Assembly (NCBI GenBank): GCA_028866655.1
Contig: JAGWHQ010000014.1
Coordinates: 1 to 40,878 of the forward strand
Length of the DNA stretch: 40,878 nucleotides
Direction: 5' to 3'
Source of the DNA: Nitrososphaerota archaeon
GTDB lineage: Archaea; Thermoproteota; Nitrososphaeria; Nitrososphaerales; Nitrosopumilaceae
A model generated the notes under the pieces. That model had not been told where the DNA came from, searched no databases, and saw nothing but the letters and a program-made list of their open reading frames with translations. How positions within the stretch are numbered: position 1 is the stretch's first letter; each line of letters opens with the position of its first letter. This document shows positions 23,142-31,596 of the stretch, one piece after another. The position numbers and the translations under genes were made by a program.

Positions 23142-24877
23142 CGGAAAGTTCCAACGATGTATCCCGCATTCACAAACGGTACACTCTAACAACATTTACA
23201 CCTACATCACACTATGTATCCCTTGCAATATCAATTGCAGTTGTATGTGTAATAGCTGCAGTATCTTACATTGATTACTTCAAGTCTACAAATAATCTGT
23301 TTATTGCACTTCCTGTTACCATTGCTGTACTTGTAGCAACACAGCTTATTGACCCAAGATTACTCAAGACTGAATATTCAAAATCGATCCACATGTCTGC
23401 ATTTGGAAACCTATTGTGGCTTGTGACAATTCTTTGTGGAATTCTTGGAGCCTATGTATTTTCAAAACCTACACTATTGTTAGTTTACATAACAGAAGGA
23501 ATGCTACTACATGCAAGTTTCCGTATTGCAATATTTACATCTGTACTTGGGACCAAGCTATCAACTGCATGGATAATCTGTCTTCTCCAACCGCTTGCAG
23601 TCTTTCTTGCATTTGTACCAACCAACATGTGGGTACCAATGCTTACTGACCCTAAAGCAATTGAATATGGAGTTGTCTTTTGTGTACTTGGTTCTGCTTG
23701 GACTCTATTAAGTGACAGGATTGCAGGAAGTGGAAGATTATCAAGCACACATGCATTCTTGCAAGCATATCTTGCTGCATGGACAAACGATGATCCTGTA
23801 CCGATGGAGTCCTTAATGGAGAAACGCTCAGAGCCATCAAAGGTTGCAACATTTCAAATTTTATTCAAGACTACGGACAAGAACTGTAGACTCGTAATTC
23901 CTGACTTGCATCCGGGACCGTTTCATCCAATTGGTGGTAGCAACATCCCATATTTGATTTACAAAAATCTTGACTCGTCTGCAATGGTGATGCATAGCAT
24001 CTCTGACCATGCGCTAAACCTGCCATCAAAATCCCAAGTTGACCTGTACATTACCAGTCTTAAACAAAATTCAAAGATTCGAGAGGGTTCCATGTGTACA
24101 AAACCTGTAACGATACAAGTGAACAAGGCACGAACAACTGGGTTGCTGTTTGATAAAACTGCAGTCTTGATACTTTCACTATCTCCACATGGCATGGAAG
24201 ACATTCCATATCAGATAAAGTCTGATTTGGAACAGTACGGCATGAATCGTGGATATGATAAAGTGCTAATCGTTGACAGCCACAATGCGATGGGAAAAGA
24301 GATTGAGAAACTTGATGCAGATGATCTCTTGACTGCTGCAAAATCTACACTTGATACACTAATCACAAAAGAGACACTACCACTCTCGGTTGGATATGCA
24401 AATTCTGAGGATCTCAATTTTGAGGCAGACGATCTTGGACCAGGTAGAGTTGCAATGATGTGCTTTAAGATTGGAGACGAGAAATTCTTTCTTGCATGGG
24501 CTGATGCAAACAATATGCTAAACGGATTACGTGAAGAGATTGCAAACTATTTCTCAAAGAATGGATACAACTTTCTTGAGATATGCACATCTGATACACA
24601 TTACAAGGCACGAACTGCAAAGAACAAGCATGGATACTTTGAGTTTGGAAGTTTGTCAAAAGCACCTGATGTGATATCTTGGTTTTCTAATCTTGCCAAA
24701 AAGGCCGACCATTCCGCAACACCTGCATCATACGAGTTGCTAAAAAGCGAGACCCAGGTCAAAGTAATGGGTGGAAACCAACTTGAACTCTATTCAAAAT
24801 CACTTGATAATGCAATGAGAATTACCCAGGCGTTTCTCTTGATAACTACGGGATTTTTCATCTATACAATGCTCTAG
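23138..24877 (+). CDS. DUF2070 family archaeal membrane protein
   Basis: A 579-residue protein with about six or seven membrane helices in the first 200 residues and one at the extreme C-terminus. The large soluble part between them (about 215-560) has the family block DLHPGPFHPIGGSNIPY, containing two histidines, plus LSPHGMEDIPY, VDSHNAMGKEIE, and DLGPGRVAM, a set of His/Asp/Asn residues that could form a metal centre. DUF2070 is archaea-specific and has no assigned function. The open frame begins at a GTG at 23111, but the ATG at 23138 overlaps the Sec61 beta stop by four bases and is preferred. Coupling to Sec61 beta points to a role in membrane-protein insertion or turnover (inference). 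Confidence 0.87.
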   Translation: MTESSNDVSRIHKRYTLTTFTPTSHYVSLAISIAVVCVIAAVSYIDYFKSTNNLFIALPVTIAVLVATQLIDPRLLKTEYSKSIHMSAFGNLLWLVTILCGILGAYVFSKPTLLLVYITEGMLLHASFRIAIFTSVLGTKLSTAWIICLLQPLAVFLAFVPTNMWVPMLTDPKAIEYGVVFCVLGSAWTLLSDRIAGSGRLSSTHAFLQAYLAAWTNDDPVPMESLMEKRSEPSKVATFQILFKTTDKNCRLVIPDLHPGPFHPIGGSNIPYLIYKNLDSSAMVMHSISDHALNLPSKSQVDLYITSLKQNSKIREGSMCTKPVTIQVNKARTTGLLFDKTAVLILSLSPHGMEDIPYQIKSDLEQYGMNRGYDKVLIVDSHNAMGKEIEKLDADDLLTAAKSTLDTLITKETLPLSVGYANSEDLNFEADDLGPGRVAMMCFKIGDEKFFLAWADANNMLNGLREEIANYFSKNGYNFLEICTSDTHYKARTAKNKHGYFEFGSLSKAPDVISWFSNLAKKADHSATPASYELLKSETQVKVMGGNQLELYSKSLDNAMRITQAFLLITTGFFIYTML

Positions 24878-25533
24878 CTCTGCATCTCTTCTAGATTTCC
24901 GTAAAACTCGTCACAGAATGAATCAAGCTGGTGGATTGGAATTATTGGAACTTTATCGATAAACTGGACACTGTGCTGATATAATGTAACAATTGCAGGG
25001 ATTGCTCCTCTGACTTTGTGCTTTGAGACAAACTGTCTTGTTCTAATCACTTGTTTTTTGACTGCCTCATGCAGTGCAGACTGGGTCATGCTGCTCCAGT
25101 GCTTGCAGTCAATTAGTATTGCAACCTCAGACTTTATTCCAACCACATCAATTTGGATGCGGGGATTTCTCATGATGACATTTTTTGTAGTCTCAAAGTC
25201 TCGCCTTTCAAGAACCTCTGCTGCAAGGGATTCAAAGTCCTGCCACTCTAGCATGCGAGATATCTCATCAATTGGAGCACCCATGCTTATTGCAATGATA
25301 CTGGTCTTTAGCTTGTCAGAATCTTCAAACTGGATCTGACCTTCCTCAAATTTTCCAATGCCGTTTTGCATTAGATTGTCTAGTATCTCTTTTGACAAAT
25401 CTTCGCTTGTCTGAGTTGCCATGCTAAAATCCTTGACAGACAGTCCACCTGGAATAATTCCTGGAATTCCTTTTGCAAGCATTGCAACATTCAATATGTG
25501 AGTTTTATATTTCTCAAATAAAATACTTGCCAC
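24874..25533 (-). CDS. Mrr-like restriction-endonuclease-fold protein
   Basis: A 219-residue protein. The first 90 residues look like a winged helix region; the C-terminal part (about 93-205) is a PD-(D/E)xK nuclease-like domain with Glu101 in WQDFESLAAEVL, Asp129 in QIDVVG and Asp142-x-Lys144 in IDCKHW. This is the Mrr/archaeal Holliday-junction-like arrangement, and no methyltransferase is adjacent, so a repair role is as likely as defence. The frame continues to an ATG at 25572, but a GTG at 25533 has an AATAAAAATTT box about 23 bases upstream and still includes the first helix, so I take it. The 3' end overlaps DUF2070 by four bases. Confidence 0.82.
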   Translation of the reverse strand: MASILFEKYKTHILNVAMLAKGIPGIIPGGLSVKDFSMATQTSEDLSKEILDNLMQNGIGKFEEGQIQFEDSDKLKTSIIAISMGAPIDEISRMLEWQDFESLAAEVLERRDFETTKNVIMRNPRIQIDVVGIKSEVAILIDCKHWSSMTQSALHEAVKKQVIRTRQFVSKHKVRGAIPAIVTLYQHSVQFIDKVPIIPIHQLDSFCDEFYGNLEEMQS

Positions 25534-25550
25534 ATTGTTTAAGATCTTGA

Positions 25551-25561
25551 AAATTTTTATT
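25551..25561 (-). promoter_or_regulatory. TATA box for the Mrr-like gene
   Basis: AATAAAAATTT-type element on the minus strand, about 23 bases before the GTG at 25533. It lies inside the 5' extension of the frame that begins at 25572. Confidence 0.5.
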
Positions 25562-25582
25562 GCACAATACATTGGACCACGG

Positions 25583-25610: not shown

Positions 25611-28070
25611 ATGAAGCTCATGCTAGTCTTGCTGCTAGCACTTTTTGTTTTAGGACCTGCTATTACATTTGGAGTCAAGGGAACAAACTTTGATGTGGTG
25701 CAGTTTATACAATATTCTGATGATAACACTGCAGTGCAAGAAGTTGAAAACGGCCACCTTGACATGTACTATTCTGCAATACCTATTGACAGACTTGATG
25801 ACCAGTCAAGACAGCACCTGAAGGTCTTCCAGTCTTCTGGAACAATCTATAGTATTTTGCTAAACCCTGCAGTATCTAACACACAATTTAATCCGTTTTC
25901 AATCCAGCAGGTAAGATTTGCAGTAAACTATCTGGTAGACAGAGACCTCATTGTAGATGAAATCCTTGATGGATATGGCGCTACAATGGTATCTGCATAC
26001 AAGCCATACGACCCTGACTATCTTCTCATACTGGGAGATCTCCAGTCGTTTAATTTCAAACACAATCCTGCACTTGCTGATTCTCTGATTACATCTGCAC
26101 TGGAACAAGCGGGTGCAAAAAAAACTGGAGGGCTGTGGTACTATGATTCAAAACCTGTTACAATTGATATTTTTATACGAAACGACGATCCTGTAAGAAA
26201 ATCAATTGGAGAGATTCTTGCATCACAATTGCAGGGCATGGGGTTTGCAGTGAAAAAAGATTATGGTGACCTGACCAAGGCATTTACAACTGTATATGGC
26301 TCAAACCCGTCTGATCTGAAATGGAATATCTACACTGAAGGGTGGACAATAGGAGGCTTTGTAAGATATGATTCTGTAAATACGGCGCAAATGTATTCTC
26401 CGTGGTACTCGAGCATGCCGGGATTTAACAATCCGTCATACTGGAATTTCCAAGACCCACAAGAAGATTCTCTATCAAAGGCAATATTTTTTGGAAACTT
26501 TACATCATATGAACAACGAGCCAGTTTGATAAACCAGGCAGTTGACAGGGGGATACATGATTCTGTTAGAATATTTCTTGCATGCAAGACTGACCAGTTT
26601 GTTGCAAACAAAAATGTTGATGGCATCATCAATGACTTTGGTGCAGGAATCACAAGCAGGTTTACGCCAATTAATGCACGGTCTGATTCTGATACGCTTA
26701 CAATCGGAGTAAAAAACATCTACTCTGGTGCATGGAATCCAATTGCGGGATTTGCAGATTCTGCAAGCCAGCAAATATGGGGAACAATATCAGATCCTGG
26801 AAGTTTCAAAAACCCTTACACTGGATATACAATTCCTGTGCGCTCTGACTGGCAAGTTGATGCCAAGGGACCGCTTGACAAACTTGATGTCCCATCTGAT
26901 GCAATAAAGTGGGATGCTTCAAAACAAAAGTGGGTCCAAGTTGGACCTGGTGCCACGGCAACAAGTAAAGTTACATTTCATCTCAAGTTTGGAAACTGGC
27001 ATGATGGCACCCCGATGGACATGAACGATGTCTTGTATGGAATCTATTTCTTGTACCAGTGGGGTGCAGACCAAACAAATGGTACCATGACATTTGATTC
27101 TGAATTTTCTCCCAAAGCAAACCAGGCTGCAAAGACACTCATAGGAGTGCGAGTAATTAATGGCAATACAATTGAGGTGTATCAAAATTATTGGCACTTT
27201 GATTCAGGCGAGATTGCAGACTCGGCTCAAGTGTGGCCTGCAATGCCATGGGAGATGATCTATTCTATGGAAAAAGCAGTAACTGATGGAAAACTTGCAT
27301 TTTCACGGTCAGATGCTGAAAGCAAAAACATTGACTGGATGTCATTACTAGTCCCAGATGATGTAAAAATAATAAAATCAAACTTGGACGAGTTTGCAAG
27401 TGAGGGTTCAATTCCTCCAGCACTTGCATTTGTGAATGACTCGAAATATTTTGTTACTAGATACGACGCATCATCATCATGGATTGCAGAGCATGGACAT
27501 GCCGTGATAAGCAATGGCCCATACTATCTTGATAGTTACGCACCTGATGCAAGAAAGATTACAATCAAGGCCTTTGACGATCCTACCTATCCATTTCCTG
27601 CAGGCTATTGGAAAAAGTTTGAACAGGTAAGCATGCCACAGATACTTGGGATTAACGTGCCAACTAGTGTATCACTTGGGTCCACCCTTGCAATTCCTGT
27701 ATCCGTTACGCCCAATGCTACAATTTACTATTACTTTACCAGTCCTCAAGGAAAGATGATTGATGAAGGAAATGTTACATTGGGGAATGGCTCTGGAACC
27801 ATTACTCTGTCATCTCAAAAGACCTCAACTCTAGACTTGGGTTCGGATGACTTGCAGGTGTTTGTGGTCTCTGATGAGGCGTACAAGCCAGACATGTATC
27901 ACACTAGCTTTCTTGTAACAAATGGTTCCATTCCACTTGTTGTATACAATGGTGTATCCAGCACTGGACAGATTGCAGAAAACTATGGGTATGTATTTTT
28001 TGGAATTATACTGGCAGGAATTGTTATTGCAGTGATATGGTATGTTATAAAAAAGAGGGGCAGATCATAG
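25611..28070 (+). CDS. Family 5 (oligopeptide-type) ABC substrate-binding protein with circularly permuted domain, membrane-anchored
   Basis: An 819-residue lipoprotein-like surface receptor. A signal peptide (about 1-22) is followed directly by what is normally the C-terminal half of a family-5 binding protein (about 27-350): NTAVQEVENGHLDMYY, QVRFAVNYLVDRDLIVDEIL, ALEQAGAKKTGGLWYY and RASLINQAVDRGIHDS. The normal N-terminal half comes after it (about 360-672): LTIGVKNIYSGAWNP, FHLKFGNWHDGTPMDMNDV and SNGPYYLDSYAPDARKI. A beta-sandwich (about 675-770) and one membrane helix (about 788-812) with a KKRGRS tail complete it. It should capture peptides or similar solutes outside the cell and deliver them to the two permeases encoded next. 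The next ATG follows its stop directly. Confidence 0.88.
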   Translation: MKLMLVLLLALFVLGPAITFGVKGTNFDVVQFIQYSDDNTAVQEVENGHLDMYYSAIPIDRLDDQSRQHLKVFQSSGTIYSILLNPAVSNTQFNPFSIQQVRFAVNYLVDRDLIVDEILDGYGATMVSAYKPYDPDYLLILGDLQSFNFKHNPALADSLITSALEQAGAKKTGGLWYYDSKPVTIDIFIRNDDPVRKSIGEILASQLQGMGFAVKKDYGDLTKAFTTVYGSNPSDLKWNIYTEGWTIGGFVRYDSVNTAQMYSPWYSSMPGFNNPSYWNFQDPQEDSLSKAIFFGNFTSYEQRASLINQAVDRGIHDSVRIFLACKTDQFVANKNVDGIINDFGAGITSRFTPINARSDSDTLTIGVKNIYSGAWNPIAGFADSASQQIWGTISDPGSFKNPYTGYTIPVRSDWQVDAKGPLDKLDVPSDAIKWDASKQKWVQVGPGATATSKVTFHLKFGNWHDGTPMDMNDVLYGIYFLYQWGADQTNGTMTFDSEFSPKANQAAKTLIGVRVINGNTIEVYQNYWHFDSGEIADSAQVWPAMPWEMIYSMEKAVTDGKLAFSRSDAESKNIDWMSLLVPDDVKIIKSNLDEFASEGSIPPALAFVNDSKYFVTRYDASSSWIAEHGHAVISNGPYYLDSYAPDARKITIKAFDDPTYPFPAGYWKKFEQVSMPQILGINVPTSVSLGSTLAIPVSVTPNATIYYYFTSPQGKMIDEGNVTLGNGSGTITLSSQKTSTLDLGSDDLQVFVVSDEAYKPDMYHTSFLVTNGSIPLVVYNGVSSTGQIAENYGYVFFGIILAGIVIAVIWYVIKKRGRS

Positions 28071-29123
28071 ATGGGATTTAAAAAATTCCTTGTCAAGCGG
28101 GCAATTACCATGTTTGGCGTACTGATGGCAACACTTCTTCTCACTATTGTTCTTGTTGGTTCCAACATGGATTCAATATCAAAGCAAAGCGCTGCACAAG
28201 ACATACGACAACAAGTGACAAGCAACAAGAGTCTTCTTGCAAGCTTCAAGACAACAGAACAACTTGATTCGTATATCAACAATCAAGTAAAAATGCGAAT
28301 CACTGCACTTGGACTTGACCAACCCTGGTACTCGCCGCAAAGAATCGGATTGTCAATGTATAAAATTTTGACACTAGACTTTGGTCATGCCAAGTTTCTA
28401 ACAAGTGATAGTGGCTCGTCTGATGTTAAAGATATCATACTTGAAAAACTTCCAAGGACCATACTTCTTTTTACAACAGCTACTGCCATAGTATCTGTCC
28501 TTGGAATATTTCTTGGGGCAGTTGCTGCAAGCAAGGTCAACTCTAAAATTGACAAGATAACATCTGGGTTTGCAATAATATCTAGCAGTTTTCCTGTCTG
28601 GTGGATTGGAGTCTTGATGATCTTTGTATTTGCATTCTTGTATCCAATATTTCCTGCAAGGGCAACACCTGATGTCTCTGCGTCAGACCCTGGGTATCTG
28701 GGCTCGCTCTTGTACCACATGGCACTTCCATTAATTACACTTGTAATCATTGGATTTGGCTCTTGGGCGTATCTGGTGAGAAATTTCTTGGTAGGTGTGC
28801 TCCAAGAGGACTTTATCATGGCAAAAAGGGCTGCAGGAATTGATGAAAAACGTATACTGTACTCACATGCGCTAAAAAATGCAGCGCCCCCGATTGTTAC
28901 GATACTTGCACTGAGTCTGTCTGGTTCCCTTGGTGGTGCAATAATTACCGAGGCAGTCTTTGACTGGCCTGGCATGGGCAGGCTATATTTTGAGGCAATA
29001 AGCGTTCTTGACCTGCCAGTGATAATTGGCGCAACCTATGTCTTGACTGCATTCTTTCTTGTCAGTGTATTTGTAGCTGATGTCTTGTATGGATACTTTG
29101 ATCCAAGGGTACGAAGACAATGA
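28071..29123 (+). CDS. ABC transporter permease, DppB/OppB type
   Basis: A 350-residue membrane subunit of an oligopeptide-type importer. An N-terminal helix (about 9-30) is followed by a roughly 90-residue outer segment and five more helices. The cytoplasmic coupling loop that contacts the ATPase is present: EDFIMAKRAAGIDEKRILYSHALKNAAPP, the EAA-type motif, near 245-275. It begins at the base after the substrate-binding protein stop (TAGATG) and overlaps the next permease by four bases. Confidence 0.93.
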   Translation: MGFKKFLVKRAITMFGVLMATLLLTIVLVGSNMDSISKQSAAQDIRQQVTSNKSLLASFKTTEQLDSYINNQVKMRITALGLDQPWYSPQRIGLSMYKILTLDFGHAKFLTSDSGSSDVKDIILEKLPRTILLFTTATAIVSVLGIFLGAVAASKVNSKIDKITSGFAIISSSFPVWWIGVLMIFVFAFLYPIFPARATPDVSASDPGYLGSLLYHMALPLITLVIIGFGSWAYLVRNFLVGVLQEDFIMAKRAAGIDEKRILYSHALKNAAPPIVTILALSLSGSLGGAIITEAVFDWPGMGRLYFEAISVLDLPVIIGATYVLTAFFLVSVFVADVLYGYFDPRVRRQ

Positions 29124-30484
29124 GTTTTTCACCGCGAGTAATATGGAAAGAATTCTCACACAGCAAGATTGGTATGACTGGAGTTGCAATTCTTGTTGTT
29201 CTTTTTTTCATGTCAGTTGTTGCATTTGTTACCATTCCACTAGACAGTTTTAAAACATGGAACGACCCTGCAAGTTGGTTGCTGTATCCGAAATCTGCCC
29301 AGCCAGCATGGATAAATTATTTCCAGTCTGAAAAAATTCCCGAACATTTGATTTTGTCTCCCATTGTGTCATCGCAACAGCTTGGCACTGTCAATGTTGT
29401 CACAAATTCATTTGCAGTAAATTACCAGTATGATGGTTTTCCAAGTGATTTTATCTATCAATATGCCGCAAAATATGGTGGCTCACCACTGTTACAAATA
29501 TCTGTGACAAGACCTGATGGGATAGTTTTGCATCTTGTATCAACTTCGCTTCCATTTGCAAGTGGCGATGTTACATACAGCAGCATGATATTTTCAACAC
29601 AAAATATTATACAAAAAAATATTGCAGACAAGAAAGCACGATATGCATTTCCACTTGATGGTATCTCCTCTGAGAAAATTATCTTTTCAAAACTTGATGA
29701 AAATACAATTCTCAAGGGAGAGTATGTATTTCATATAAATCTCTATGATGTATCCGGAAAACCTGTGCTGGAGCAATCACGTCTGATTCTTGGGGGCCAA
29801 GTATATGGAATCATGGGAACAGATGAGCTACGACGAGACCTGTCCATTGGACTGCTTTGGGGAACACCTCTTGCACTATTCATAGGAATTACAGTATCAA
29901 TTGGCTCTGTAGTAATTGGCCTGATTTACGGTGTCTATGCTGGCTACAAGGGAAAGGCAACAGATGAGGTATTGATGCGCTTCAATGACATCATCTATGC
30001 CATGCCTGCACTACCTCTACTGATTATCCTTGCAGTGACAATTGGAAACAGCATATTTCTGATGGTAGGATTTCTAGTGATATTTGGCTGGGTTGGAATA
30101 GCAAAGGTCTCAAGAAGCATGGCCATGCAGATAAAGACACTACAATATGTCGAGGCAGCACAACTCATGGGCCAGAAAAATCACAAGATTATTTTCAAAC
30201 ATATTTTGCCACAACTTTTGCCATATGCATTTGCAAGCATTGCAATATCTGTACCAGGTGCAATCACTACTGAAGCGGGCCTGAGTTTTCTGGGTCTTGG
30301 CGATCCCACTTTTCCAACATGGGGTCAGATACTCCATGATGCAAGCTCTTACAGTGCAGCAGCTCGTGGGATGTGGTGGTGGATATTACCCCCTGGCATC
30401 CTGATTGCAGTGACAGGTCTTGCGTTTGTGTTTATGGGCCACGCAATGGATGGCATTGTAAACCCTAAGCTTCGACAGCGTTGA
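29120..30484 (+). CDS. ABC transporter permease, DppC/OppC type, with long extracellular insert
   Basis: A 454-residue membrane subunit; family members are usually about 300. Helix 1 (about 18-39) is followed by an insert of about 190 residues before the conserved GTDELRRDLSIGLLWG (from about 231), predicted to be outside the cell and beta-rich. The EAA coupling loop VEAAQLMGQKNHKIIFKHILPQ and the closing EAGLSFLGLGDPTFPTWG are typical of DppC. The insert could dock the membrane-tethered binding protein (inference). No ATP-binding subunit follows; the next genes are on the opposite strand. The 3' end overlaps the convergent 30465-30791 gene by 20 bases. Confidence 0.92.
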   Translation: MSFSPRVIWKEFSHSKIGMTGVAILVVLFFMSVVAFVTIPLDSFKTWNDPASWLLYPKSAQPAWINYFQSEKIPEHLILSPIVSSQQLGTVNVVTNSFAVNYQYDGFPSDFIYQYAAKYGGSPLLQISVTRPDGIVLHLVSTSLPFASGDVTYSSMIFSTQNIIQKNIADKKARYAFPLDGISSEKIIFSKLDENTILKGEYVFHINLYDVSGKPVLEQSRLILGGQVYGIMGTDELRRDLSIGLLWGTPLALFIGITVSIGSVVIGLIYGVYAGYKGKATDEVLMRFNDIIYAMPALPLLIILAVTIGNSIFLMVGFLVIFGWVGIAKVSRSMAMQIKTLQYVEAAQLMGQKNHKIIFKHILPQLLPYAFASIAISVPGAITTEAGLSFLGLGDPTFPTWGQILHDASSYSAAARGMWWWILPPGILIAVTGLAFVFMGHAMDGIVNPKLRQR

Positions 30485-31167: not shown

Positions 31168-31596
31168 TTAATCCGAACTAATCGATGTTTCAAGCAGGTT
31201 GCCATCACGATCGTAGGCAAAAATGTCACCGTCTTCATACGGTGATTGTATGATAATTGATACAAAGCCAAAAAAGTTGTGCAAATCGGTGACTGATGGT
31301 CTTGCGACACCTGATGGATGCGAATGCACTGTTCCTATGTAGCTTGTATCAAGTGGAAGAAAAGAATGTGGAAATCCTGCAAATGTGGGGCCTGTGTGGA
31401 AGAACGGTGGAATTACTAATCCATCTACTGTTACCTGTCCCTTTCTTGACTTGCCCTTGAGTATCAGTATGCACTCGTTTGGATGATTCATTTTACAATA
31501 TGATAGAATACTGTCTCGAATGTCTTTTTTTATCGTTATATTTCGTTTGAGTTTTTCTTTCTTGAAGAAGATCAACTGGAAACTTATCCGTATCAC
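31168..31596 (-). CDS. JAMM/MPN+ (Mov34/JAB) metalloprotease-like protein
   Basis: A 142-residue single-domain protein. The complete JAMM zinc site is present: Glu41 in NECILILKG, His91 and His93 in HSHPSGVARPSVTD, with Ser101 and Asp104 at the right spacing (H-x-H-x7-S-x2-D). JAMM enzymes hydrolyse isopeptide bonds to ubiquitin-like proteins; archaeal forms remove SAMP-type modifiers or process sulfur-carrier proteins. No modifier or E1-like gene is in the window. GTG at 31596 is chosen because a CATATATCT box lies about 25 bases upstream. Confidence 0.92.
   Translation of the reverse strand: MIRISFQLIFFKKEKLKRNITIKKDIRDSILSYCKMNHPNECILILKGKSRKGQVTVDGLVIPPFFHTGPTFAGFPHSFLPLDTSYIGTVHSHPSGVARPSVTDLHNFFGFVSIIIQSPYEDGDIFAYDRDGNLLETSISSD

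Follow-up and report, generated by a model that had tools for sequence, protein, structure and literature searches.

The closest solved relative of the protein described here is the oligopeptide permease A of Thermococcus kodakarensis (TkOppA; PDB 7fi3); according to its title, the PDB entry contains an endogenous pentapeptide in bound form. Searches of the PMC open-licence literature yielded no paper on TkOppA. A binding protein of an ABC importer that is naturally circularly permuted has been reported from Treponema: TpMglB-2 (Tp0684) is designated 'Type Ic / Cluster Bc' and has a Type I / cluster B glucose-binding fold in which three N-lobe strands have moved to the C-terminus, with tethering raised by its authors as a possible reason for the permutation (PMC4990184).

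Here we analyzed a stretch of 40,878 nucleotides (the window) that encodes an 819-aa product at 25611 to 28070 (+). We consider this gene product, with a probability of about 0.92, to be a cluster-C (family-5) substrate-binding protein that has undergone circular permutation and belongs to an ABC importer of the Opp/Dpp type. A genome search recovered this gene as the only SBP_bac_5 gene, and as the sole match to that family in an archaeon that its nearest named relatives mark as Nitrosotalea-like (ammonia-oxidising), it bears on the possible uptake of organic compounds by such organisms. The chain is laid out as follows.

25611..25673 (+): signal-peptide-like N-terminus, aa 1-21, a hydrophobic start judged by eye
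25674..26666 (+): family-5 C-terminal half, first in the chain, aa 22-352 (structural match to aa 361)
26667..26693 (+): junction of the old C-terminus and old N-terminus, aa 353-361, in the gap left by the C-half and N-half models
26694..27626 (+): family-5 N-terminal half, second in the chain, aa 362-672
27636..27923 (+): C-terminal all-beta domain, aa 676-771 (modeled strands span 678-770)
27987..28064 (+): predicted C-terminal membrane helix with a basic end, aa 793-818 (helix at 793-818 in the model)

Order of the two halves

A sequence-only reading of the window had placed segments typical of the second half of DppA/OppA-type proteins ahead of the usual N-terminal half, which was said to begin only at residue ~360. 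All of the segments it quoted are present in the order it gave, namely NTAVQEVENGHLDMYY (aa 39-54), QVRFAVNYLVDRDLIVDEIL (aa 100-119), RASLINQAVDRG (aa 303-314), LTIGVKNIYSGAWNP (aa 363-377), FHLKFGNWHDGTPMDMNDV (aa 456-474), and SNGPYYLDSYAPDARKITIKAFDD (aa 634-657), and the N-half indeed occupies aa 362-672, after the C-half at aa 22-361. The protein scores 95.2 bits against Pfam SBP_bac_5 (PF00496; gathering cut-off, 32.4), split over two stretches, which places it in SBP_bac_5 and cluster C by score but without the canonical half order. The strongest stretch aligns aa 25-250 with profile positions 146-351; in the genome search, this piece lies at 25683-26360, and profile positions 18-141 lie downstream at 26967-27611, a piece that is weak by itself (22.1 bits, E 3.2e-5, below the family cut-off). 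The profile search proposed as a check on half order thus returned the PF00496 pieces swapped, with no single collinear full-length match, and this order marks a permuted variant rather than an ordinary SBP_bac_5 member.

Comparison with TkOppA gave the same picture. The top solved match by phmmer was 7fi3, with query residues 369-662 aligned to chain positions 17-310 and residues 31-292 to positions 326-611 (positions here and in the profile comparison are counts along the chain). A profile built from 33 relatives matched 7fi3 with an E value of 9.2e-130 in three pieces: 372-668 on 11-309 (i-E 5.2e-62), 26-283 on 317-596 (i-E 6.7e-61), and 300-364 on 658-722 (i-E 0.0013). Judged from these alignments, the three pieces are the segments of 7fi3 in rotated order, to a degree beyond chance. 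The motif WNxYTEG is kept across the permuted set, with N, I, and G nearly invariant. It had also been claimed that in Escherichia coli DppA the equivalent of the segment near residue 650 directly precedes that of the segment at residue 28, and this held: in DppA the match of the N-tail model (208-230, i-E 0.00038) comes just ahead of that of the C-half model (249-366), which is the normal order. As a control, the C-half model also matched OppA (245-377) and NikA (285-393) of E. coli; the N-tail model had no significant match in either of these two, and the main N model had none in DppA, OppA, or NikA.

The predicted structure of the whole protein (pLDDT 88.5, pTM 0.84) bore out the permutation. 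Each half of the model matches a half of the cluster-C fold, and the two map in swapped order on 7fi3, with aa 22-361 aligned to residues 334-755 and aa 361-672 to a range starting at residue 34. The latter range ends at 736, near the C-terminus of 7fi3, so that some residues at the end of the second half lie off the place that a plain rotation predicts. A separate complete binding domain in the N-terminal part is rejected on these two alignments. The structure-search matches listed bear the names of family-5-type proteins; among them is the domain-swapped binding protein AliC (8qlh), and the monomer model would also be compatible with an obligate dimer in which the halves pair between two molecules and the order reflects that pairing. 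We regard such a dimer as improbable, because the monomer model unites both halves with a pTM of 0.84 and further rotations of the same ring exist among relatives. In the alignments and models a short linker connects the old termini, and each half corresponds to its counterpart in one canonical fold. The new termini, on the same grounds, are placed between a segment ending in ...YPFxxxYW and one starting at about DkVxF, which adjoin each other in canonical members. The junction was also examined in nine relatives.

Spread, rotations, and history

Relatives of the protein were found in 50 of the 61 genomes near that of the window (its own counted) and at 52 distinct loci of GTDB genomes, where titles mostly name Thaumarchaeota, with Nitrosotalea and its kin; Desulfurococcales, Geothermarchaeota, Thermoplasmata, and Baldrarchaeota are represented by single records, and Atribacterota and Spirochaetes by several. 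The proposed check of homologues was carried further with profile A1. In the window's phylum it matched 186 of 299 genomes (E ≤ 1e-30); the other matches were 40 of 247 in Spirochaetota (E ≤ 1e-30), 9 of 50 in Atribacterota and 2 of 194 in Thermoplasmatota (both E ≤ 1e-25), and 4 of 148 in the phylum of the Baldrarchaeota genome (E ≤ 1e-20), phylum names being inferred from the records used as centres and a match by itself being no proof of half order. In at least 4 of the 186 genomes (G110, G183, G286, and G290, found on re-querying 20 of the matching genomes) the genes behind the match are canonical, and such copies may be undercounted because only the best few candidates were scored per genome. 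The permuted form is no peculiarity of a single genome: it is common in archaea and present in some bacteria, with permuted genes also in Atribacterota, Spirochaetota, Thermoplasmatota, and Asgard archaea.

Half order could be read in 160 distinct sequences, of which 155 run C-N, 4 run N-C, and 1 runs n-C-N, but these shares are not natural frequencies, since permuted proteins, and in one search a canonical protein, served as the queries by which the loci were retrieved. The count draws on frames with enough of both halves among 246 sequences (loci and window, many overlapping), leaves out fragments and edge-cut or masked sequences, and may count a gene twice if two loci cut it at different points. 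Nothing was found to favor an assembly or frame artefact, and the same order recurs across numerous independent assemblies, in most cases with no internal stop, and in single-contig genomes such as G006 and G035; we rule out this explanation, whose probability is negligible.

The third rotation is that of a Baldrarchaeota gene (L078:147-2582), in which an N-tail, the last piece of the N-half, is followed by the C-half; the remainder of the N-half comes next, and a membrane helix closes the chain. The gene begins with a signal-like stretch at a TTG codon preceded by a purine-rich site and is followed downstream by OppB and OppC; as a single gene close to a contig start, it needs confirmation. 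Going by their segment order, the N-C, C-N, and n-C-N forms are rotations of one ring. In L080 and L081 a long stretch ahead of the gene was considered as a tandem copy and rejected, the frame being overlong with a plausible start within. Separately, the frame of a permuted gene at L160 (G760) ends in a helix together with a short stretch that is P-rich and contains PGF, an ending reminiscent of an archaeosortase signal.

Canonical genes of one archaeal family (f37) are nested among permuted genes. The canonical protein L118 of this family matches 12 of 397 genomes of its phylum (E ≤ 1e-40), namely that of L118 itself, that of a close relative (79%), and ten more. Of these ten, seven have both pieces listed, adjacent and swapped, at 37 to 45% identity, and for the remaining three the list gives the C piece alone. 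New domain orders are known to arise by fusion, and the halves could in principle derive from two different family-5 genes rather than from one permuted gene. This origin appears very improbable given that the genome has only one SBP_bac_5 gene, that the nearest solved relative is the same for both halves (7fi3), and that both halves of L118 match the same permuted genes.

Trees were built from representative sequences (57 out of 121 after clustering at 80%, or 64 out of 160 at 62%, plus TkOppA), with the window's own gene represented by a near relative. In a 65-row tree, without the long-branched L117 and its partial kin L119, two f37 genes and five permuted rows fall in a starred clade (100/100), the starred branches force at least two order changes, and a single change occurs in 0 of 200 bootstrap trees. 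The best-sampled test rejects a single clade of permuted rows (p-AU 0.0115; 62 rows versus 3), as does an earlier 58-row set (p-AU 0.0261; 54 versus 4); the latter set without L117 (57 rows), which predates the addition of near permuted kin of f37, does not (p-AU 0.332). A quick tree with L117 forces three origins of canonical rows, and in a C-half tree with E. coli outgroups the starred branches force one origin of these rows only; this result and the p-AU of 0.332 speak against repeated permutation.

These trees indicate that the order has likely changed repeatedly, and the canonical order elsewhere in family 5 suggests that the ancestral order was canonical. A full natural series, in which the ring was cut at three places, the order changed repeatedly, and f37 returned to canonical order from a permuted ancestor, is a tentative reading that we place slightly below even odds. 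TkOppA, as the solved member of the subfamily, may itself be a revertant to canonical order. A double-length frame was looked for and none was found, and DNA repeats inside the gene amounted to four weak two-copy families, taken as chance; we infer the duplication mechanism, as we do the selective reason and the substrate.

Transporter genes and proposed function

Two permease genes directly follow that of the binding protein.

28071..29123 (+): OppB-type permease (BPD_transp_1, 5e-38; best NCBIfam model Opp2B, 2.5e-55, below the model cut-off)
29120..30484 (+): OppC-type permease (BPD_transp_1, 2.2e-26 at aa 267-452; best NCBIfam model Opp4C, 1.5e-53, below cut-off)

The OppC carries an extra segment of ~170 aa after TM1 (about 29255-29770) that has no Pfam match up to an E value of 1. 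Two OppD/OppF-type ATPases with oligo_HPY matches above cut-off lie at ~68-70 kb of G000:C22; their frames are 346 and 335 aa long, and they are not linked to the window. An Opp/Dpp-type importer is represented by OppB and OppC beside the binding protein together with ATPases of the OppD/OppF type. Complete sets of binding protein, OppB, OppC, and two ATPases stand together at L066, L177, and the canonical L171-L173. Elsewhere in the window, the neighboring ORF at 24874-25572 (-) has weak similarity to Mrr-type restriction endonucleases (E 3.2e-5; 24.5 bits versus a cut-off of 21), and a small ORF at 31168-31596 (-) has an HSHP...D pattern, presumably akin to that of JAMM/MPN peptidases.

OppC frames beside permuted genes are mostly 452 to 543 aa long (one is overlong, at 831), and that beside the standard binding protein L178 is 295 aa. 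A tie between permutation and a long OppC is weakened by the canonical operons L171, L172, and L173, whose OppC frames are also long (506, 503, and 439 aa); this argument is one of length, because similarity to the window's OppC insert, present at 7 of the 10 permuted-gene loci with an adjoining OppC, was not detected in L171-L173, nor in the permuted L066, L175, and L176. No OppB/OppC was found to adjoin the receptor gene in L053, L055, L058, and L059, relatives whose titles name Nitrosopumilus, Nitrosarchaeum, or Cenarchaeum. An orphan receptor in Nitrosopumilaceae is ruled out, as 114 of the 120 genomes in the window's family have OppC, in many cases away from the receptor; in G208 the distance is ~92 kb.

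The protein is most likely the receptor of an Opp-type importer, probably one for peptides. In the mechanism we propose, the chain would be exported through its signal peptide (with a simple script, 151 of 155 permuted sequences showed a hydrophobic or lipobox start ahead of the C-half) and, as modeled, would fold into a single two-lobed binding protein. In most archaea the C-terminal beta domain and membrane helix would serve as a tether; the domain has no Pfam family above its cut-off and is Ig-like by inference only. The receptor would catch its solute outside the membrane and hand it to OppB/OppC, with transport powered by the single, unlinked OppD/OppF pair of the genome. By analogy with TkOppA the substrate is probably a short peptide, although family-5 ligands vary and peptide import here is drawn from TkOppA only. 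The receptor may be oriented by being tethered at the end newly created in its N-half. As a general reason for the half order, however, relocation of a C-terminal tether is weakened by members without the helix: a C-terminal hydrophobic helix is found in 107 of the 155 permuted sequences and is missing from 44, mostly bacterial, the other 4 being edge-cut.

Comparison with known systems

To our knowledge, few families show natural circular permutation in more than one rotation, and here canonical, C-N, and n-C-N forms stand side by side in one widespread transporter subfamily. This subfamily lets the effects of segment order be tested on folding during export, tethering, and permease docking, as well as whether permutation reverses. 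There is also a consequence for annotation, as PF00496 sees the permuted protein only as two pieces, swapped.

The proteins of the DppA/OppA/NikA type (family 5, cluster C) share with the window's protein the family match and the fold of each half; those aligned here are canonical, whereas the window's protein is permuted, with an added C-terminal beta domain and helix. TkOppA aligns with both halves and has WNxYTEG in common with the permuted set, but its N-half precedes its C-half, and the window's protein has the C-half first. The sequence-only reading knew of no permuted member of the family, and searches of the PMC open-licence literature, a scope outside which most subscription papers lie, likewise found none. 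Permutation of binding proteins is known in cluster B, and the family-5 case appears undescribed in that literature. TpMglB-2 resembles the window's protein in being a natural circular permutation of an ABC-importer binding protein, but it belongs to cluster B, whereas the window's protein has a cluster-C fold, another cut, and another family.
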